Assembly: GCF_015160855.1 (NCBI RefSeq)
Contig: NZ_CP063373.1
Location: 9,771,001 to 9,835,000 of the forward strand
DNA from: Streptomyces ferrugineus
Lineage (GTDB): Bacteria > Actinomycetota > Actinomycetes > Streptomycetales > Streptomycetaceae
Direction: 5' to 3'
Length of the DNA stretch: 64,000 nt
Shown here: in pieces, positions 33,526 through 44,198 of the stretch
Layout: the number at the start of each line of letters is the position of its first letter
Position numbering within the stretch: the first letter of the stretch is position 1
The notes under the pieces: model-generated
What the model saw: only the letters and a program-made list of their open reading frames with translations
What the model was told of the DNA's origin: nothing
The model's database searches: none
Program-made: the position numbers and the translations under genes

Positions 33526-36123
<2,598 letters not shown>

Positions 36124-36242: not shown

Positions 36243-36656
36243 ATGGCCGCACACCCCCAGGATCCTGGCGCGCCGGACGCGCCGTACCTCACCTTCTGGC
36301 AGGAGAGGCACCTGTGCACCCTGACGACCCTGCGCCCGGACGGCACTCCGCATGTCGTACCCGTCGGAGTGACATACGACCCCAAGGCGCGGCTGGCTCG
36401 GGTGATCACGAACAAGTCCAGCGCGAAGGTGGGCCATGTGCTGGCCGCCGGCCCCGACGGGGCGCGGGTGGCGGTCTGCCAGGTGGAGGGCCGGCGGTGG
36501 GCGACGCTGGAGGGACGGGCGCGGGTGTGGACCGACCGGGAGCGGGTGACGGAGGCGGAACGGCGGTACGCGCAGCGCTACGGGCGGACCCCGCGGCCGA
36601 ACCCCGACCGTGTGGTGATCGAGATCGAGCTGACGCGGGCGATGGGGCGGGGGTGA
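36243..36656 (+). CDS. PPOX-type split-barrel protein, probable F420-dependent
   Basis: The 137-residue protein has the flavin/F420 split-barrel fold: FWQERHLCTLTTLRPDGTPHVVPVGVTYDP, ITNKSSAKVGHV, ARVAVCQVEGRRWATLEGRARVW and a C-terminal VVIEIELTR strand. This pattern is that of TIGR03618-type proteins that bind F420 rather than FMN in actinobacteria. The reaction is unknown. It is divergent from clpB and the start has no ribosome site; TAGGTT nine bases before the ATG suggests a leaderless message. It ends before the strong hairpin at 36764-36804. Confidence 0.82.
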   Translation: MAAHPQDPGAPDAPYLTFWQERHLCTLTTLRPDGTPHVVPVGVTYDPKARLARVITNKSSAKVGHVLAAGPDGARVAVCQVEGRRWATLEGRARVWTDRERVTEAERRYAQRYGRTPRPNPDRVVIEIELTRAMGRG

Positions 36657-36847: not shown

Positions 36848-37183
36848 TCAGGCACTGCGGGGGGTGGCTGAGATGGTCCTTGGGGCCGGGGCCTCCGGCT
36901 CCACCAGCCGGTGGTCGCGCTGGTCGAGGTTGACGAAGATCATTCCGTATCGGATGGCACACCTCACAGGCTGCGGCGCCCCCCGAGGCCGCCGCAGACA
37001 CCGGTACGCCCGTACGTCCTCATCCTCGTCCCGCGTGACGACGACCGGCTCACCGAAGACGGTCACCATCAACGAGTCACCGGGGTGGGGGATCGCGGTG
37101 ACGAGGTCGATGAAGTGCCAGCCGGAGCGGTACGCCGTGGCCATTTCGCGACGGAAGGAACGGTCGTCGGGTGGGGTGGTCAT
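36848..37183 (-). CDS. Small degenerate Rieske-like protein of unknown function
   Basis: The 111-residue protein reads like the N-terminal half of a Rieske oxygenase domain: YRSGWHFIDLVTAIPHPGD, VTVFGEPVVVTRDEDEDVRAY, then CLRRPRGAP where the family has CRHRGA, and CAIRYGMIFVNLD where it has CxxHGW and FVNLD. Both histidine ligands of the 2Fe-2S cluster are missing, so it can hardly bind a cluster. The ATG at 37183 comes 5 bp after the stop of the small exported peptide gene, so they are co-transcribed. The resemblance is my own reading and moderate only; it may be a fold used for peptide or ligand binding. Confidence 0.6.
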   Translation of the reverse strand: MTTPPDDRSFRREMATAYRSGWHFIDLVTAIPHPGDSLMVTVFGEPVVVTRDEDEDVRAYRCLRRPRGAPQPVRCAIRYGMIFVNLDQRDHRLVEPEAPAPRTISATPRSA

Positions 37184-37188
37184 CGCGA

Positions 37189-37392
37189 TCAGTCCCACGT
37201 GCTGTCGAGAGGGAAGACCGGCGTTTCATCGCCAGCGGCCCCGGCGGCAACGGACTGAGCACCACCCGCCTTGAACGCATCGCCCTTCACACCGGAGAGG
37301 CCAGTCAGTACTCCGAAGGCCACAACGGCGGAGAAGGCGGCGACAAGTACCGAGCGAAGCATTCTGTTACGCATAGTCGGCTTCGTCCTCAC
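37189..37392 (-). CDS. Small exported peptide, divergent from LuxR-type regulators
   Basis: The 67-residue product has a basic start (MRTKPTMRNRMLR), a hydrophobic core SVLVAAFSAVVAFGVLTGL and a hydrophilic remainder of about 35 residues that ends in TPVFPLDSTWD. This is a classical export signal with a short mature peptide. GTG 37392 has AGGGGA upstream; ATG 37374 is an alternative start with GAGGA. It is divergent from the regulator gene at 37506 with about 110 bp between, and is followed closely by the Rieske-like gene. I do not know a characterised relative. A signalling peptide or a modified-peptide precursor is a conjecture from context. Confidence 0.65.
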   Translation of the reverse strand: MRTKPTMRNRMLRSVLVAAFSAVVAFGVLTGLSGVKGDAFKAGGAQSVAAGAAGDETPVFPLDSTWD

Positions 37393-37505
37393 TTGAAGGT
37401 CCCCTCTTCCCCCGTCGAGTAAGACGATGGCTCATTCAGGCACGTCATGGCCACACGATCGGTGCATCATGTTCCTGCATGTTCAGGACCCTGGGGGGTG
37501 GAGAT
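37393..37505. promoter_or_regulatory. Divergent promoter region with CATGTTC direct repeats
   Basis: CATGTTC at 37468-37474 and again at 37478-37484 is a direct repeat with a 10-bp period, one helical turn, and ATGGCC/GTGCATCATG lies beside it. The stretch 37420-37480 is less GC-rich than the genes on both sides. It separates the peptide gene from the first LuxR-tailed regulator and is the likely site of autoregulation. If the regulator started at ATG 37479 the second repeat would be coding. Confidence 0.45.
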
Positions 37506-38519
37506 TTGGCAAAAAATGAGACAAGGGCGACACATCCCCATGCGGTGACCGAATTGTGTGAGGATGGAAGCCGCCTTTACGCGAGTGCCCTGCGCACAGG
37601 TCGCATTCTGCGGGCGGATGTGGAACCTGCTCCATGTCTGATGGAGTTCGCCCTCCTTCACCCTGATCCCGATGACGCCAACTGGCTGCGCCCCGTTCCG
37701 GCTTCCGTCGCCCTGGCCCAGCGACTCAACCCGATAGAGCGCGAGATCACGGCACAGCGGCGCACGTCGATCGCACTCGCCGAGCTCTTCGAGCCATTCA
37801 TGGCCCTCGGCGCCCAGGACGCCGCCCCCACCCACTCGATCACGGTGCTGGAGGGCCTCGACCGCATCAACGCGGCGCTCGACCTGGCGATCGCCCACTG
37901 CCAGACCGAGATGCTCACAGTCCAGCCGAGCGGCCACCGCCGCCCTGAGAACCGGCTCGTCGAGGCACTGGAACGGGACAGGCCGCTGATCGAGCGCGGA
38001 GTACGTATCCGGACCCTCTACCAACACACGGCCAGGTTCATTCCCGACCGGCTGGCCTATATGGACCACTTCACCGACGGCAAGGTGGAGTACCGCACCA
38101 TCGACGAGCTTGTCGAGCGCCTCATCGTCTGCGACGAGACCGTCGCCTTCATCCCCATCCGCGACGACCGTCAGGTGGCACTGGAGCTCCGTCACCCGGG
38201 TCTCGTCCGTTACCTGATCAAGGTCTTCGAGTTCATGTGGAGCCGTGCCGTCCCCCTGAGCGCCGGCGCCCCCTACGAAACCGCCCCTGACGGCATAACC
38301 GACATCCAGCACTCCATAGCCAAGCTCCTCGTCGACGGCCACGTCGACGAGGCCATAGCGCGCCGCCTGGGGATGAACGTACGTACCTGCCGGGCCCACA
38401 TAGCCAAACTCGCGACGGCCCTGGGCAGCGGCAGCCGTGCCCAGCTCGGCTACCTCATAGCTCAGTCGGGGATGCTGGAAAAAGATCACACGCCAACAGA
38501 GGGAGACAGCCGCCCATGA
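37506..38519 (+). CDS. LuxR-tailed regulator with PLD-like sensor domain, paralogue 1
   Basis: The protein has an N-terminal helical part with LCEDGSRLYASALRTGRI, a middle domain with EMLTVQPSGH, DRPLIERGVRIRTLYQHTAR, ELVERLIVCDETVAFIPIRDD and ALELRHPGLVRYLIKVFEFMW, which resembles the phospholipase D-like sensor of TrmB-type regulators without its catalytic residues, and a C-terminal LuxR-type helix-turn-helix (AKLLVDGHVDEAIARRLGMN, VRTCRAHIAKL). There is no receiver Asp. I place the start at TTG 37506 after GGTGGAG because this aligns with the start of the third paralogue; ATG 37479 is an alternative without ribosome site. It overlaps the next gene by four bases. Confidence 0.82.
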   Translation: MAKNETRATHPHAVTELCEDGSRLYASALRTGRILRADVEPAPCLMEFALLHPDPDDANWLRPVPASVALAQRLNPIEREITAQRRTSIALAELFEPFMALGAQDAAPTHSITVLEGLDRINAALDLAIAHCQTEMLTVQPSGHRRPENRLVEALERDRPLIERGVRIRTLYQHTARFIPDRLAYMDHFTDGKVEYRTIDELVERLIVCDETVAFIPIRDDRQVALELRHPGLVRYLIKVFEFMWSRAVPLSAGAPYETAPDGITDIQHSIAKLLVDGHVDEAIARRLGMNVRTCRAHIAKLATALGSGSRAQLGYLIAQSGMLEKDHTPTEGDSRP

Positions 38520-39487
38520 CCGAGGGGCACCCGCACGGACTGGAGGAACTGTGCGAGGCAGGTAAGAACCTGTACGCCCAGGCCCTGCGTGAAGGGCGCG
38601 TGCGTACAAAGGATGTCAACAGCGTGTCGTGCCTGGTCGACCTCAGGCTGCTGCAGCCCATGGTCGAGGACCTGGACTGGTTAGAGCCGGTCTCCCCCTC
38701 TGTCGCACTGCATCGGCTGCTGCGGGCGTCCGAGGAACGCATCGCAACAGAGCGGCGGCGCGAGGAGAAGCTAGCAGCCGCGTTCGAACCACTGATGAGG
38801 CACGCCTTCCCACAGACGACGGTGGACTCATCCGCGATCAGTGTCGTGAGCGGGCTCGACTCGATCAGGCTCAGCATCGCTCAAGCCACGGCTGGTGCGT
38901 CCCGGGAAGTCCTCACCATCCAGCCTTACTACGGCCAGACCATCTCATCCCGCATGGCGGAGTCCTTTGAACGCGACCAGGCCCTGCTGGATCGAGGTGG
39001 CCGCATCCGCACTCTCTACCAGCACACCCTGCGCCACTCGCCCGCCGTGATCGCCCGATACGAACATCTGACGGGCGACGCGGAGGTTCGCACTCTCGAC
39101 GAGGTCACCGACCGCCTTCTGGTGATCGACCGCACCGTCGCCTTCATACCCGCAAGCACGGACCGCACCCTCGCTCTCGAAGTCCGCCACCCCGCCCTGA
39201 TCTCCTTCTTTGTGACCACCTTCGAGCGGCTGTGGCAGCTTGCCACCCCGATGTATCCCGAAGCCGTCCAGCAACCTTCCCTGAACGGCATCACCCCCCG
39301 CCAACGCGCCATCGCAGCCCTCCTCGTCGAGGGTCACACCGATGCCGTCATAGCCGACCGTCTCGGCCTGAACGTCCGCACCGCCCGTGTCCACATCGCC
39401 AAACTCGCCGCCACCCTCGGCAGCGAAAGCCGCGCCCAACTCGGCTACCTCATCGGGCAGTCGGGGATCCTCGATCCGGAAAGCTGA
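38516..39487 (+). CDS. LuxR-tailed regulator with PLD-like sensor domain, paralogue 2
   Basis: The 323-residue protein has the same layout as its upstream neighbour: LEELCEAGKNLYAQALREGR, EVLTIQPYYGQT, DQALLDRGGRIRTLYQHTLR, EVTDRLLVIDRTVAFIPAST, ALEVRHPALISFFVTTFERLW, then the helix-turn-helix RAIAALLVEGHTDAVIADRL with NVRTARVHIAKLAATLGSES. ATG 38516 overlaps the stop of paralogue 1 (ATGA), so they are translated together and could form heteromers. It ends 38 bp inside the convergent third paralogue. Its GC content appears lower and its codon choice less biased than that of the surrounding core genes. Confidence 0.85.
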   Translation: MTEGHPHGLEELCEAGKNLYAQALREGRVRTKDVNSVSCLVDLRLLQPMVEDLDWLEPVSPSVALHRLLRASEERIATERRREEKLAAAFEPLMRHAFPQTTVDSSAISVVSGLDSIRLSIAQATAGASREVLTIQPYYGQTISSRMAESFERDQALLDRGGRIRTLYQHTLRHSPAVIARYEHLTGDAEVRTLDEVTDRLLVIDRTVAFIPASTDRTLALEVRHPALISFFVTTFERLWQLATPMYPEAVQQPSLNGITPRQRAIAALLVEGHTDAVIADRLGLNVRTARVHIAKLAATLGSESRAQLGYLIGQSGILDPES

Positions 39488-40499
39488 GTGGTGGCGACGA
39501 CGAAACATCCGCCGCCCCCGATGGCCTGTCCAGCCCCACCTGAGCGATGCGGACGCCCAGTTGCGTACGGCTCACTGCCCCCAGCGTCTCCGAGAGCCTG
39601 GCGATGTGGGCACGGCAAGTGCGGACGCTTATACCAAGCCGTTCCGCGATGACCGCGTCCTGGTGGCCCTCTGCCAGCAGCGCGGCGATGGACTGCTCGC
39701 GGTGGGAGATGCCCTCGATGCCGGTGTCAGGGAGGGGGGCCGTGAGCGGGATCGCCAGGCGCCAGAAGCGTTCGAAGACCGTCACCAAATAGTGGACCAG
39801 CCCCGGGTGGCGCAGTTCCAGCGCGATCGTGCGGTCCGCGTTCGCGGGAATAAAGGCGACCGTACGGTCGAAGACGATCAGCCGGTCGATCACCTCGTCC
39901 AGCGTGCGGGCCTCCACCGAATCGCCCATCAGCTCAAGGTAGTTGAGCAGGCCCTGGCCGTGCCGGGCCACATGTGTGTACAGGTCCCGCATCCGCACGC
40001 CCCGCCCGCGCAGCGCCATCGCCCGGTGCAGGCCCTCCGTCAGCTCGTGCTCGGGACGGATGCCGCCGGGCTGCACGGTCAGCACCTCCCTCGTGCACGC
40101 CTGGGTCGCCTCGTCCAGCGCGCCCTGGATGCGCGAGTCGCCGTCCAGCACCCGGATCGCGGTGCCCTCGGCGCCGGACGCCTGCGACAGCGGGGGACCG
40201 AGCCCGGCGTACCACTCGAACGCCGCCACCGCCGAGCCCATCCGCCCCTGGCTCGCGCTGACCTCGTCGTAGATCCCGCGCAGCAGCCGTGTCATGACCT
40301 CCTGCGGGGAGGTCGGCACCAGCCACTCCATGTCGTCGGGGTCGGGGTGCAGCAGGGCCAGCTCCAGCAGGCAGGGCACCGGCTCCGCGTCCCGGCGCGG
40401 CACCCGACCGCGGCGGACGGCCCGGGAATACACGCGATCCCCGGCCTCGCACAGCCGGTCGGCACCGTGTGGATGCTCCTTCGCCCCGTGCCCGGCCAT
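39450..40499 (-). CDS. LuxR-tailed regulator with PLD-like sensor domain, paralogue 3
   Basis: The 349-residue protein shares the architecture of the two genes it faces: ADRLCEAGDRVYSRAVRRGR, EVLTVQPGGIRPEHELTEGL, GRGVRMRDLYTHVARHGQG, EVIDRLIVFDRTVAFIPANA, ALELRHPGLVHYLVTVFERFW, and the helix-turn-helix QSIAALLAEGHQDAVIAERL with SVRTCRAHIARLSETLG. The ATG at 40499 has a GGGGGTGGA stretch upstream. The C-terminal 30 residues overlap the 3' end of paralogue 2 by 38 bp, so the two messages are complementary there. Inverted and not tandem, it probably arose by a separate duplication. Confidence 0.83.
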   Translation of the reverse strand: MAGHGAKEHPHGADRLCEAGDRVYSRAVRRGRVPRRDAEPVPCLLELALLHPDPDDMEWLVPTSPQEVMTRLLRGIYDEVSASQGRMGSAVAAFEWYAGLGPPLSQASGAEGTAIRVLDGDSRIQGALDEATQACTREVLTVQPGGIRPEHELTEGLHRAMALRGRGVRMRDLYTHVARHGQGLLNYLELMGDSVEARTLDEVIDRLIVFDRTVAFIPANADRTIALELRHPGLVHYLVTVFERFWRLAIPLTAPLPDTGIEGISHREQSIAALLAEGHQDAVIAERLGISVRTCRAHIARLSETLGAVSRTQLGVRIAQVGLDRPSGAADVSSSPPLSFPDRGSPTAR

Positions 40500-40882: not shown

Positions 40883-42424
40883 ATGGCGGACATATTTGAC
40901 GCGTACGCGTTGGCCGACGCGTGGGACGAGATGTTTGAGCGGCCAGGTGAGGTCAGGACCGCCTATGAGCCGGTGCTGGCGGCGCTTCAGCCGATCGAGC
41001 CGAGCGAACTCCGGTTCCGGGCCGACCAGATGGCCCGGGCCTTCACCGACCGGGGCGTGACCTACGCCTTCGCGGGTGAGGAGCGGCCCTGGCCGCTGGA
41101 CCTGGTGCCCCGCATCCTCGACGCCCTCGAATGGGATCTCATACAACGCGGGGTCGGTCAGCGGGTCAGGGCGCTGGAGGCCTACCTCTCCGATGCCTAC
41201 GGACACGCCCGCGCCTTCGAGGACGGGGTCGTGCCCTGGCGGCTGCTGCTCAACTCCCCCCACTTCCACCGGGTGGCGCACGGGGTCGAACCACCGGGAG
41301 GCGTACGGATCCACGTGGCCGGGATCGACCTCGTACGGGACGAGGCCGGGGACTTCCGGGTGCTGGAGGACAACGTCCGGGTGCCCAGCGGGGTTTCGTA
41401 CGTCATCGAGAACCGGCGGGCCATGACCCGGATCTTCCCTTCTCTCTTCGCCGAGCAGCATGTGCTCCCCGTCGACGGATACGCGCAGCGGCTGCTCTCC
41501 GCCCTGCGCGCCGCCGCGCCCGCCGGGACCGCCGACCCGCGCGTCGTCGTGCTCACCCCGGGGCCCAGCAACGCGGCCTACTTCGAACACGCCCTGCTGG
41601 CCCGACTGATGGGCGTGCAGCTCGTCGAGGGGCACGACCTGGTGTGCCGCAACAACCGTGTCTGGATGCGGACCACCCGCGGCGAGGTCCCCGTCCACGT
41701 CGTATACCGACGCCTCGACGACGACTTCCTCGATCCCCTCCACTTCCGCCCCGACTCGGTGATCGGCTGCCCGGGGATCATGAGCGCCGCCATGGCCGGC
41801 AACGTCACACTCGCGAACGCCGTAGGGAACGGAATCGCGGACGACAAGCTCCTCTACACGTACGTGCCCGATCTCATCCGGTACTACCTCTCCGAGGAAC
41901 CGATTCTCCCCAACGTCGAGTCCTACCGGCCGGACGAGCCCGGGCAGTTGGAGGCCGTGCTCGATCAGATCGAGCAGCTCGTCATCAAGCCCGTCGACGG
42001 CGCCGGAGGGCAGGGCATCGTCATCGGGCCCAGGGCCGACCGCGAGACGATCGAACGCACTCGCAAAGCCGTCATCGCCGATCCCCGCGGCTTCATCGCC
42101 CAGCGGCCGGTCGCCCTGTCCACCTCCCCCACCCTCGCAGGCGAGCGCATGGCGCCGCGCCACATCGACCTCCGCCCCTTCGCCGTCAACGACGGCAACG
42201 ATGTCTGGGTGCTGCCCGGCGGCCTCACCCGGGTCGCCCTCCAGGAGGGCAACCTCATCGTCAACTCCAGCCAGGGCGGCGGCTCCAAGGACACCTGGGT
42301 GCTGGCCGAGGGACCGACGGAGCGACCGGCGGCTCCGGCCACGGCACCGCCCGAGGTCGCCCCGCGTCAGCTCGGACCCGACGGCACCCCCACCGTCGTA
42401 CAGGAAGGGGCGCAGCAGCAGTGA
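40883..42424 (+). CDS. Circularly permuted ATP-grasp protein (DUF404/DUF407 type)
   Basis: The 513-residue protein belongs to the circularly permuted ATP-grasp type 2 group (COG2308): MADIFDAYALADAWDEMFE at the start, GVEPPGGVRIHVAGIDLVRDE, FRVLEDNVRVPSGVSYVIENR with the metal/ATP-binding acidic residue and Asn, VIGCPGIMSAAMAGNVTLANAVGNG, and the nucleotide-binding EQLVIKPVDGAGGQGIVIGP. It is expected to activate a carboxylate and form an amide bond. With the alpha-E and transglutaminase genes it forms a very widespread three-gene operon, predicted by comparative genomics (Iyer and Aravind group) to act in peptide ligation or modification; no substrate is established to my knowledge. Confidence 0.93.
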   Translation: MADIFDAYALADAWDEMFERPGEVRTAYEPVLAALQPIEPSELRFRADQMARAFTDRGVTYAFAGEERPWPLDLVPRILDALEWDLIQRGVGQRVRALEAYLSDAYGHARAFEDGVVPWRLLLNSPHFHRVAHGVEPPGGVRIHVAGIDLVRDEAGDFRVLEDNVRVPSGVSYVIENRRAMTRIFPSLFAEQHVLPVDGYAQRLLSALRAAAPAGTADPRVVVLTPGPSNAAYFEHALLARLMGVQLVEGHDLVCRNNRVWMRTTRGEVPVHVVYRRLDDDFLDPLHFRPDSVIGCPGIMSAAMAGNVTLANAVGNGIADDKLLYTYVPDLIRYYLSEEPILPNVESYRPDEPGQLEAVLDQIEQLVIKPVDGAGGQGIVIGPRADRETIERTRKAVIADPRGFIAQRPVALSTSPTLAGERMAPRHIDLRPFAVNDGNDVWVLPGGLTRVALQEGNLIVNSSQGGGSKDTWVLAEGPTERPAAPATAPPEVAPRQLGPDGTPTVVQEGAQQQ

Positions 42425-43359
42425 ACGACGTGATCCTCTCCCGCATCGCCGAGGCCCTGACCTGGACCGGACGGTACGTCGAACGCGCCGACGCCACGGG
42501 GCGCATCCTCGACGCCTATCTCCACCGCATGCTGGAGGACCCCTGGCGCGACGAGGACGTGGCCTGCCGGTCGCTGTACGCGATCCTTGGGATCGACGCG
42601 GGCGACGAGCCGGTCGACATGCAGCAGGTGCTCGACCAGCTGGCCTTCGACGCCGGCTCGACCGGGTCGATCGAGGGCGCGCTGGGCGCCGCCCGGCTGA
42701 ACGCGCGCAGTGCTCGCGAGGCCGTCTCCTCCGAGATGTGGGAGTGCCTCAACTCGACGTGGCACGCGCTCGCCGATCAGCGCCTCGCGGCGCGCCGCAC
42801 GGGTCCGTATGCCTATCTGGAGCTGGTACGCCGCCGGGCGGCCCTCTTCTTCGGCCTCGCCGACTCCACCATGAGCCGGGACGACAGCTGGCGTTTCGTC
42901 GTCCTTGGCAGGAGTCTGGAGCGGGTGGACATGACCGTACGGCTGCTGTCGGTGCGGGTGCTGGACGCCGCGCACGCGCCCGACTGGCCGACCCTGCTGA
43001 GCGCGTCCGGCGCGGACGAGGCGTACGCGCGCGTGTACAGCGGTTTCGGCGACACCCCTCGGGTGGCCGAGTTCCTGCTCCTCGACCGGGACTTCCCGCG
43101 CTCGGCGCTGCACGCGCTGACCACGGCGGAGGAGTGCCTCACCGCGCTGGGCCGTCCCCGTCAGGATCCGGCGCGCCGCCCGATCGGCCGGCTGCGCACC
43201 CGCCTCGAATACCTGGACACCCAGGCCCTGGAGGATCAGCTCCCTGCCCTGCTGAGGGACTTGCAGCAGGCCTGCATGGCCTCGGCGGACGCGGTGGCCG
43301 ACCGGTTCTTCCCGTACCAGGGGCCCGTCGAGTGGGCCCAGGAAGGAGCGCGAGCATGA
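42421..43359 (+). CDS. Alpha-E domain protein (DUF403)
   Basis: The 312-residue, mainly helical protein is an alpha-E (COG2307) member: ILSRIAEALTWTGRYVERADATGRILDAYL at the N-terminus (positions 5-34) is the signature region, followed by Glu/Arg-rich helices such as SSEMWECLNSTWHAL, SMSRDDSWRFVVLGRSLERVDMTV-like helices and LRTRLEYLDTQALEDQLP. It has no known catalytic motif and is invariably linked with the ATP-grasp protein, so it is probably its partner subunit or a carrier of the substrate. GTG 42421 overlaps the upstream stop (GTGA) and its own stop overlaps the next start (ATGA). Confidence 0.92.
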   Translation: MNDVILSRIAEALTWTGRYVERADATGRILDAYLHRMLEDPWRDEDVACRSLYAILGIDAGDEPVDMQQVLDQLAFDAGSTGSIEGALGAARLNARSAREAVSSEMWECLNSTWHALADQRLAARRTGPYAYLELVRRRAALFFGLADSTMSRDDSWRFVVLGRSLERVDMTVRLLSVRVLDAAHAPDWPTLLSASGADEAYARVYSGFGDTPRVAEFLLLDRDFPRSALHALTTAEECLTALGRPRQDPARRPIGRLRTRLEYLDTQALEDQLPALLRDLQQACMASADAVADRFFPYQGPVEWAQEGARA

Positions 43360-44198
43360 CCCGCCGCCTCCGCATCAAGCACACGACGAGGGTCTCCTAC
43401 GCCCAGCCCGCCGCCTCGTCCCACAACGAGGTCCGCATGACCCCGCTCACGCTGCCCGGCCAGACCACCCTGGACGCCCGGATCGCCGTGAGCCCGTCGG
43501 CCACGACCTGGTCGTACTGGGACTACTGGGGCACCCAGGTCACCGGCTTCGACCTGATGGACCCGCACGGTCACCTCACGATCACTGCCTCCAGCCTGGT
43601 CGAGACGTCTCCGCCGGGGAACCTGCCGGAGCCGCCGAGCTGGACGGAGGTGTCCGAGCACATGGCGAACTCCCGTCTGTTGGAGTTCACAGGCGCCACA
43701 TCCCGTACGACGGTCCCGCCCGCGCTCGTCGACAAGGCGCGGGAGGCGGCGGCCGACCTCGACCCGCACGAGACGGCGGTCGCGGTGTCGGCGCTGGTCG
43801 CCGACCGGGTGTCGTACCTCCCCGGCGCGACAGGAGTGAACACCTCCGCCGCCGAGGCCTGGGACCAGGGAGCCGGTGTCTGCCAGGACATCGCCCACCT
43901 CACCCTCGCCCTGCTGCGCGGCCTGGGGCTGCCGGCCCGGTACGTCTCCGGCTATCTGCATCCCGAACGCGAGGCCGAACTGCACCGCCCGGTGGCCGGC
44001 CAGAGCCATGCCTGGGTCGAGTACTGGGCGGGCGACTGGTGCGGCTACGACCCCACGAACCGGACCCGGGCCGACGAGTCCCATGTGGTGGTCGGCCGCG
44101 GCCGCGACTACGACGACGTCACCCCGCACAAGGGCATCTACCGGGGTGTGCCCGGCGGTCCGCCGGAGGTGACGGTGGAGTTTACGCGGGTGGCGTGA
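43356..44198 (+). CDS. Transglutaminase-like protein of the ATP-grasp operon
   Basis: The 280-residue protein has an N-terminal beta domain (LRIKHTTRVSYAQPAASSHNEVRM in positions 5-28, typical Bact_transglu_N) and a papain-fold transglutaminase core with the catalytic Cys in GVCQDIAHLTLALLR, His in QSHAWVEYWAGDW and Asp in YDPTNRTRADESHV. All three catalytic residues are in place. Such enzymes can act as peptidases or amide transferases. It is the third gene of the operon and is coupled by the ATGA overlap at 43356, so the three products are made in step and probably act on one substrate. Confidence 0.93.
   Translation: MTRRLRIKHTTRVSYAQPAASSHNEVRMTPLTLPGQTTLDARIAVSPSATTWSYWDYWGTQVTGFDLMDPHGHLTITASSLVETSPPGNLPEPPSWTEVSEHMANSRLLEFTGATSRTTVPPALVDKAREAAADLDPHETAVAVSALVADRVSYLPGATGVNTSAAEAWDQGAGVCQDIAHLTLALLRGLGLPARYVSGYLHPEREAELHRPVAGQSHAWVEYWAGDWCGYDPTNRTRADESHVVVGRGRDYDDVTPHKGIYRGVPGGPPEVTVEFTRVA

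Follow-up and report, generated by a model that had tools for sequence, protein, structure and literature searches.

A repeated four-residue motif and a TrmB/PLD-LuxR regulator as a likely peptide signal and receptor pair across much of Streptomyces

What keeps a small gene for an apparently exported peptide next to a Rieske-like protein that has lost its cluster ligands and to three LuxR-type regulators? The question is raised by a five-gene cassette in a 64,000-nucleotide stretch of Streptomyces ferrugineus DNA (contig NZ_CP063373.1, positions 9,771,001 to 9,835,000; hereafter the window), taken from a genome that forms a single 9.96-Mb contig and whose near relatives are Streptomyces. The cassette comprises the Rieske-like gene, the peptide gene and the regulator genes R1, R2 and R3 (Table 1). 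An earlier reading made from the letters of the window without database searches (the sequence-only reading) had listed these open reading frames (ORFs), all of which we found where they had been placed, including the 67-residue product ending PLDSTWD, and had likened the arrangement to peptide signalling through several regulators or to a minimal modified-peptide system. Our results strongly support the peptide signalling, whereas they support neither a receptor role for all three regulators nor a modified peptide. We think it likely that the peptide and R1, its predicted cognate receptor, work as a signal with its receptor, a pairing that much of Streptomyces has conserved.

Three features that can be read directly in the sequences carry the argument, namely a uniform repeated motif in the precursor, the synteny of the locus, and the covariation of R1 residue 145 with motif position 2, set against negative controls. 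The loci compared came in two sets, 100 loci picked from strong and weaker matches to the Rieske-like protein, including genomes without a peptide match, and the best 80 of 501 relatives (loci L147 to L226); at least 9 of the 180 relatives fetched duplicate another locus. The tail of the peptide contains the tetrapeptide [D/E/N]-x-x-W in 101 of 101 peptides (the 100 first-set loci and the window), in 1 to 10 copies per precursor gene. This repetition was invisible to the sequence-only reading because the window gene holds a single copy, DSTWD. Among the 75 multi-copy genes, 71 carry copies identical throughout, compared with a mean of 2.6 and a maximum of 9 uniform genes when the middle letters were shuffled among genes in 2000 trials. 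Over 479 within-gene copy pairs, motif positions 1 to 4 show 0, 5, 2, and 0 residue differences and 38, 129, 213, and 0 codon differences, while the residues flanking the motif differ in 42 to 76% of the pairs; switches between AGY and TCN serine codons even occur between copies within a single gene (L091, L095, and L098). Codons and flanks thus vary and residues do not, which rejects DNA-level duplication as the source of the uniformity and argues that selection keeps the word constant inside each gene. The middle letters vary between species, giving 38 distinct words among 169 non-redundant loci, and motif position 5, the residue after the tryptophan, is constant within 133 of the 169 genes. 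In a held-out set described below, the copies were uniform in 54 of 57 multi-copy genes.

Ahead of this tail, the precursors begin with a basic N-terminus (median net charge +5) followed by a hydrophobic segment of median hydropathy 2.35 and, in 177 of 178 precursors, by a permissive small-x-small site, a pattern from which we infer export via the N-terminal segment. A match of the peptide to the E492 microcin (E 0.08) lay below the cutoff and was taken as chance.

The order clpB, Rieske-like gene, peptide gene, divergent R1 is kept in every relative fetched, 100 of 100 in the first set and 80 of 80 in the second, and R1 is present, whole or partial, in all 180 loci (the match is partial in L051). 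Because the order is maintained throughout the 180 relatives fetched, the conservation of the cassette goes far beyond chance. The sequence-only reading had argued that the linkage would be accidental if the peptide and Rieske-like genes were widespread without the regulators; when this was looked at, R1 accompanied them in every locus of both sets. The Rieske-like gene gives matches in 167 of 199 genomes of the genus (E≤1e-5). Nine of these are weak (E≥1e-18), and the five that were read are four divergent members of the same locus and one full-size oxygenase; with this one and the four left unread set aside, the gene is present in at least 162 of the 199 Streptomyces genomes. The peptide search gave matches in 145 of 199 (E≤0.01), some weak ones lying within unrelated long ORFs. 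Among 28 genomes of the genus searched for both genes, 23 have the Rieske-like gene together with an R1 of orthologue strength (E≤1.4e-129) and 5 have neither, their best R1 match being 7.9e-45. No Rieske-like orthologue appeared in 93 family genomes of other genera, a figure derived from the order of the survey listing; the five weak matches there, all ORFs of 389 to 672 residues, were rejected as ordinary-size oxygenases. The R1 search extended to another family of the order, with other genera of the same family outside it, and its best match there (2.3e-45) is at paralogue level. One of the 80 second-set records, named Kitasatospora aureofaciens (L147), carries the locus.

If R1 reads the peptide, its sequence should follow the motif. 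Every variable R1 column was scored against the motif, with entropy-matched ClpB columns as the control; 181 loci with R1 gave 178 automatically read motifs and 169 non-redundant loci. At column 145, Met accompanies Ser at motif position 2 in 81 of 81 loci, Val accompanies Thr in 48 of 48, and Leu accompanies Pro in 12 of 12, and the loci with Ile, Leu, or Val at position 2 have Val or Ile at 145 (28/28). This single column predicts Ser or Thr in 129 of 129 loci, compared with 0.78 for the next R1 column, 0.71 for the best ClpB column, and a baseline of 0.63; the Rieske-like protein, considered as a specificity partner, was rejected with a best column of 0.69. The two residues interchange at least 32 times on the ClpB codon tree, at least 23 times on the R1 tree built without codons 145 and 167, and at least 21, 25, and 33 times on trees of the non-sensor part, the third positions, and the helix-turn-helix (HTH) part of R1, respectively. 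Column 145 changes as often as Ser and Thr do on the R1 trees, with zero mismatching tips. (The switch count is unchanged after collapsing weak branches, which we do not use as evidence.) No nucleotide within 15 codons of codon 145 predicts better than 0.72, and linkage or a shared recombination tract therefore does not explain the behaviour of this column. A close pair of loci illustrates it: between L050 (DSHW) and L053 (DTHW), 9 of the 142 residues of the sensor have changed, and Met145Val is one of the changes. For motif position 5, the prediction from column 159 reaches 0.71, with a baseline of 0.23 and a best ClpB column of 0.38 (133 loci).

The residue-145 rule was fixed before the held-out loci were read. 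These were 89 new loci, of which 19 had an already used R1 and 2 had peptides that were not called automatically, leaving 68 for the count, with loci closely related to the training set retained. Ser went with Met in 28 of 28 and Thr with Val in 14 of 14, counts that cover the held-out loci only, beyond the 169 training loci; Pro went with Leu in 7 of 7, and the rule held in 65 of 68 overall. The two loci read separately (L318 and L321, DPGW with Leu145) obey it, as do two second-set loci read by hand (L148 and L158, DSVW with Met145). In four very divergent loci, Leu145 pointed to Pro, and their peptides were then read as DPAW, DPAW, DPTW, and DPTW, an expectation that had not been noted down beforehand. 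This divergent clade, L325 to L328, has a Rieske-like protein shortened further and peptides with little visible similarity apart from a terminal DPAWD or DPTWG.

The PLD-like sensor and LuxR HTH that the sequence-only reading saw in all three regulators are supported by Pfam, by a profile built from 58 R1/R2/R3-type sequences, and by fold comparison. The Pfam GerE domain scores above the cutoff in R2 and R3 and below it in R1, the 58-sequence profile matches LuxR-type HTH structures, and the GerE-type HTH at the C-terminus places the regulators in the LuxR superfamily. In agreement with that reading, no receiver domain was found by Pfam at E≤1, nor was an autoinducer-binding domain or a tetratricopeptide repeat in R1, R2, and R3. 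The R1 model (mean predicted local distance difference test score, pLDDT, 78.7; predicted template modelling score 0.47), made without ligand and with uncertain relative domain positions, resembles TrmBL2 over residues 20-261, has a sensor of the PLD fold at 115-262, and has the LuxR HTH at about 270-336. By profile and fold, the sensor is PLD-like and homologous to TrmB/TrmBL2. Columns 145 and 155 to 159 lie within it, the latter among the best predictors of motif position 5, and the top 20 columns by normalised association with position 2 fall 13 in the sensor, 5 upstream, and 2 in the HTH part.

We propose a model in which the small gene would encode a precursor with an export signal, whose tail would be cut back outside the cell, leaving a short linear peptide based on D-x-x-W (DSTW in the window). 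This peptide would re-enter the cell, probably via an oligopeptide permease, and bind the TrmB/PLD-type sensor of R1, in which residue 145 would be the wall reading motif residue 2 and residues within 152-198 would contribute to the reading of positions 3 and 5. Peptide binding would alter DNA binding by the LuxR-type C-terminus of R1, and the targets would very likely be the shared intergenic region between the peptide and R1 genes and antibiotic-production genes. With middle letters that differ between species, each would respond chiefly to peptides of its own kind. What we infer here is the export of the precursor, its trimming, the re-import of the peptide, its direct binding to R1, and the regulatory targets. 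With less assurance, we favour a broader view, that a ribosomal peptide language of at least 38 four-letter dialects, with up to 10 copies per precursor, is widespread in Streptomyces, that it is heard by a new class of receptor (TrmB/PLD sensor with LuxR HTH) in which one pocket residue sets the word heard (Met for Ser, Val for Thr, Leu for Pro, Ala for Phe), and that it controls antibiotic production.

The rival that survives best, and which we hold to be unlikely, is a tethered partner: an unexported or membrane-held precursor would bind R1 directly as an anti-regulator, and specificity would co-evolve without cell-to-cell signalling. The covariation indicates contact between motif and R1, not export; several copies of the motif would let one precursor titrate more than one R1 molecule; and a DNA-binding R1 is cytosolic, where an unexported precursor would meet it. 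The basic N-terminus, hydrophobic segment, and small-x-small site would, however, put the motif side outside, and a motif drifting from species to species would suit kin signalling better than a private inhibitor.

Several points weigh against the signalling model itself. Export is read solely from charge and hydropathy, and peptide uptake must be assumed because R1 binds DNA and so acts in the cytosol. The motifs are mixed in four multi-copy genes (L115, L118, L119, and L125). The three held-out misses, all of one clade, have Ala145 with DFGW, DFGW, and DLGW, outside the fixed rule, that is, apparently a larger motif residue opposite a smaller wall. L184 has ITEW with Leu145, having also lost the acidic first residue, and a looser R1 set that includes tandem R1-like copies contains one Pro locus with Ile145. 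The switch numbers are parsimony counts, each on a single FastTree tree. Asp167, found in 129 of 129 Ser/Thr loci and 0 of 40 others, is weak support because its association is a single event on the R1 tree and confounded by clade. Motif position 3 is only partly predicted (0.52; baseline 0.24, best ClpB column 0.35). Taken over its full length, R1 scores higher than the ClpB control, with mean z values of 1.65, 1.69, and 3.57 at motif positions 1, 2, and 3, and columns of high association occur outside the sensor, e.g., 14, 24, 83, and 271; part of the general signal is therefore not pocket specific. Finally, the Rieske-like protein does not covary with the motif and fits nowhere in the explanation.

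This last protein bears on a second rival, which we consider very unlikely, in which the locus makes a ribosomally synthesized and post-translationally modified peptide (RiPP) or another small bioactive peptide: the D-x-x-W core would be modified, the Rieske-like protein would act in maturation, and R1 would be the pathway regulator or product sensor. The repetition of the core motif would suit such a system, as would its tight coupling to a conserved partner gene (5 nucleotides downstream of the peptide gene), and R1 could read a modified core equally well. The loss of both cluster histidines announced by the sequence-only reading is borne out by the alignment, however, in which the window's protein and 38 others chosen from the 120 listed relatives (identity 68 to 98% among these 120 matches) all lack the ligand histidines. 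The CxH and CxxH ligands of a [2Fe-2S] cluster were found in none of these 39 sequences, and some members have Leu, Thr, or Ser in place of the Cys. Arg, Pro, and Gly positions around the former ligands are invariant in the 39. The protein aligns only to the N-terminal part (the first 70-odd residues of the aligned domain) of Rieske oxygenases, its Pfam Rieske match is below the cutoff, and its model (pLDDT 69.3) gives a weak structural match to the Rieske oxygenase group. We read it as a conserved partner and not as a redox enzyme; as a guess, it could be a cytosolic accessory tuning R1 or the precursor.

A modifying enzyme was sought beside the precursor in two loci, the others having been searched for the window's own genes. 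In both, S. tendae (L150) and S. violaceorubidus (L154), the order is clpB, Rieske-like gene, peptide gene, R1, R2, R3, followed by genes that we take from their sequences to be a lipoprotein gene, hspR, and dnaJ. No core-modifying enzyme stands beside the precursor in either, a remote enzyme being possible. The window does have a PPOX oxidoreductase gene and an ATP-grasp gene near the precursor, but they are missing in other species. The modified-peptide proposal of the sequence-only reading thus finds no support here.

Nor do the data support its suggestion of a receptor role for each of the three regulators, R1 being the only one that is constant across loci and that tracks the motif. R2 was rejected as a receptor of the same peptide (best column 0.67, baseline 0.56), as was R3 (0.72, baseline 0.65). 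The number of tandem R2 copies ranges from 0 to 4, and R3 was not seen in part of the loci. To the third rival, linkage or shared ancestry only, with peptide and R1 travelling as one cassette and their residues correlating without interaction, we give scarcely any weight: the two genes are adjacent, the switches on the ClpB tree (32) exceed those on most R1 trees (21 to 25), so that some cassette exchange is likely, and the overall association with the motif is stronger for R1 than for ClpB, but the reading is already disfavoured by codon 145 alone separating Ser from Thr where other R1 columns and nearby nucleotides fail, by the equally linked R2, R3, and Rieske-like protein not tracking the motif, and by the many switches that persist on R1's own trees.

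The paralogues show features of their own. R3 has Val at residue 145 in 131 of 133 sequences, and its residues equivalent to R1 145, 159, 167, and 191 are nearly invariant (V, E, A, and L), which suggests, for this reason, a ligand that is fixed and common across species. R2 is amplified to as many as four tandem copies between R1 and R3 in L075 and L209. Precursors were also sought beside other R1 paralogues of the same genome, and no repeated D-x-x-W was seen by eye within the 1.5-kb flanks in L004 and L005.

How, then, does the proposed pair relate to known systems? In the RRNPP family of Bacillota (Rap/Rgg/NprR/PlcR/PrgX and arbitrium), a short propeptide gene adjoins an intracellular receptor of 250 to 500 residues, as summarized in an excerpt of PMC10075063. 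The 346-residue R1 is likewise the divergent neighbour of a short propeptide gene and tracks the peptide sequence. It differs in having a TrmB/PLD sensor with a LuxR HTH in place of a tetratricopeptide-repeat receptor, in up to 10 signal copies per precursor, and in its occurrence in Streptomyces-type genomes. The system would thus work like imported-peptide quorum sensing while standing outside RRNPP, because the defining tetratricopeptide-repeat receptor is absent. With LuxR solos and LuxR-LuxI pairs, R1 shares the C-terminal LuxR (GerE) HTH, but its sensor is of the TrmB/PLD fold, with no autoinducer-binding domain found; no search for LuxI was made. Residues 20-261 match archaeal TrmBL2 (5box and 5bpd) in sequence profile and fold, and the sensor matches the TrmB sugar-binding domain (2f5t); TrmB senses sugars, according to the title of the 2f5t entry, whereas R1 apparently reads a peptide and carries an extra LuxR HTH, and its whole-length superposition on TrmBL2 is poor (root mean square deviation 10-22), the domains being arranged differently. 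The 655-Da signal of S. coelicolor imported by BldK offers a likeness in Streptomyces, being a small peptide thought to enter via an oligopeptide permease (PMC9640686, in part). The Rieske-like protein resembles the N-terminal domain of Rieske oxygenase alpha subunits, to which it aligns, and differs from them in its length of 111 residues and in having neither CxH/CxxH ligands nor a catalytic domain.

The locus can be placed on the map of S. coelicolor, where clpB is SCO3661 and hspR is SCO3668 (PMC2631018, in part), and where the consulted part of PMC3282765 describes SCO3665 (327 residues) and SCO3666 (394 residues) as LuxR-family proteins; R2 of S. tendae has 327 residues. Because this order of clpB, LuxR genes, and hspR is shared with S. 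tendae and S. violaceorubidus, SCO3664 is R1 by gene order rather than by sequence comparison, and SCO3663 and SCO3662 are the predicted peptide and Rieske-like genes. An excerpt of PMC6585502 names SCO3664 among the genes whose insertion increased actinorhodin more than 50-fold, and our model suggests a ligand for it. In the section of PMC10075063 consulted, actinobacterial signals are typically small molecules, and we found no description of the peptide family in the literature searched, whose coverage left out most subscription papers, so that novelty is unproven. Peptide quorum sensing is a theme of Bacillota, and at least 162 of the 199 Streptomyces genomes sampled carry the proposed pair, counted by the Rieske-like gene. 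If the model is right, the main antibiotic producers would gain an inexpensive switch that can be synthesised, namely a peptide of four or five residues picked for each species from its genome, and strains would be inducible with synthetic peptides. Since the receptor code would be readable from sequence, specificity, cross talk, and kin recognition would be directly testable.

Table 1. Positions in the window of the cassette genes and of the elements discussed
Feature	Position	Strand	Basis or remark
clpB	33526-36123	-	near the five-gene cassette
Rieske-like protein without cluster ligands, 111 aa, read as a conserved partner	36848-37183	-	homologue comparison
Putative peptide-signal precursor, 67 aa from a GTG start; basic N-terminus, then a hydrophobic export segment and a one-motif tail	37189-37392	-	
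Predicted signal motif DSTWD (S and T as specificity residues, D at position 5)	37192-37206	-	motif survey and covariation
Intergenic block GCATCATGTTC and palindrome TCCTG-N6-CAGGA, between the peptide and R1 genes	37464-37488	+	
R1, predicted receptor, 346 aa, N-terminus TrmB-like	37479-38519	+	synteny, sensor fold, covariation
R1 codon 145, Met in the window; putative specificity residue paired with motif position 2 (Ser in the window)	37911-37913	+	
R1 codon 167, Asp	37977-37979	+	Ser/Thr association; clade-confounded on R1 tree
R2, R1 paralogue	38516-39487	+	0-4 tandem copies among relatives
R3, inverted R1 paralogue, pocket residues nearly fixed	39450-40499	-	

Some details of the layout complete the picture. 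The Rieske-like ORF spans 36848-37198 on the minus strand, and its real start is most likely the ATG at 37183, giving 111 residues as in many homologues. From the ribosome-binding-site context, read by eye, R1 probably starts at the TTG at 37506. The intergenic sequence GCATCATGTT is kept in 100 of 101 loci, and the block and palindrome between the peptide and R1 genes form a candidate R1 operator or a candidate promoter. The reading frames of R1 and R2 share 4 bases, and R3 is convergent to R2 and overlaps its end. The PPOX oxidoreductase gene, of the F420 type (36243-36656), lies between clpB and the Rieske-like gene and is present in some species and missing in others. After R3, the window carries a gene group (40883-44198) whose first gene recurs in some loci and whose members we take to be ATP-grasp-like, alpha-E-like, and transglutaminase-like; in S. 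tendae, the lipoprotein gene and hspR stand in its place. The window locus lies close to the end of the contig and mid-chromosome in many complete relatives, which may reflect a rotated assembly.

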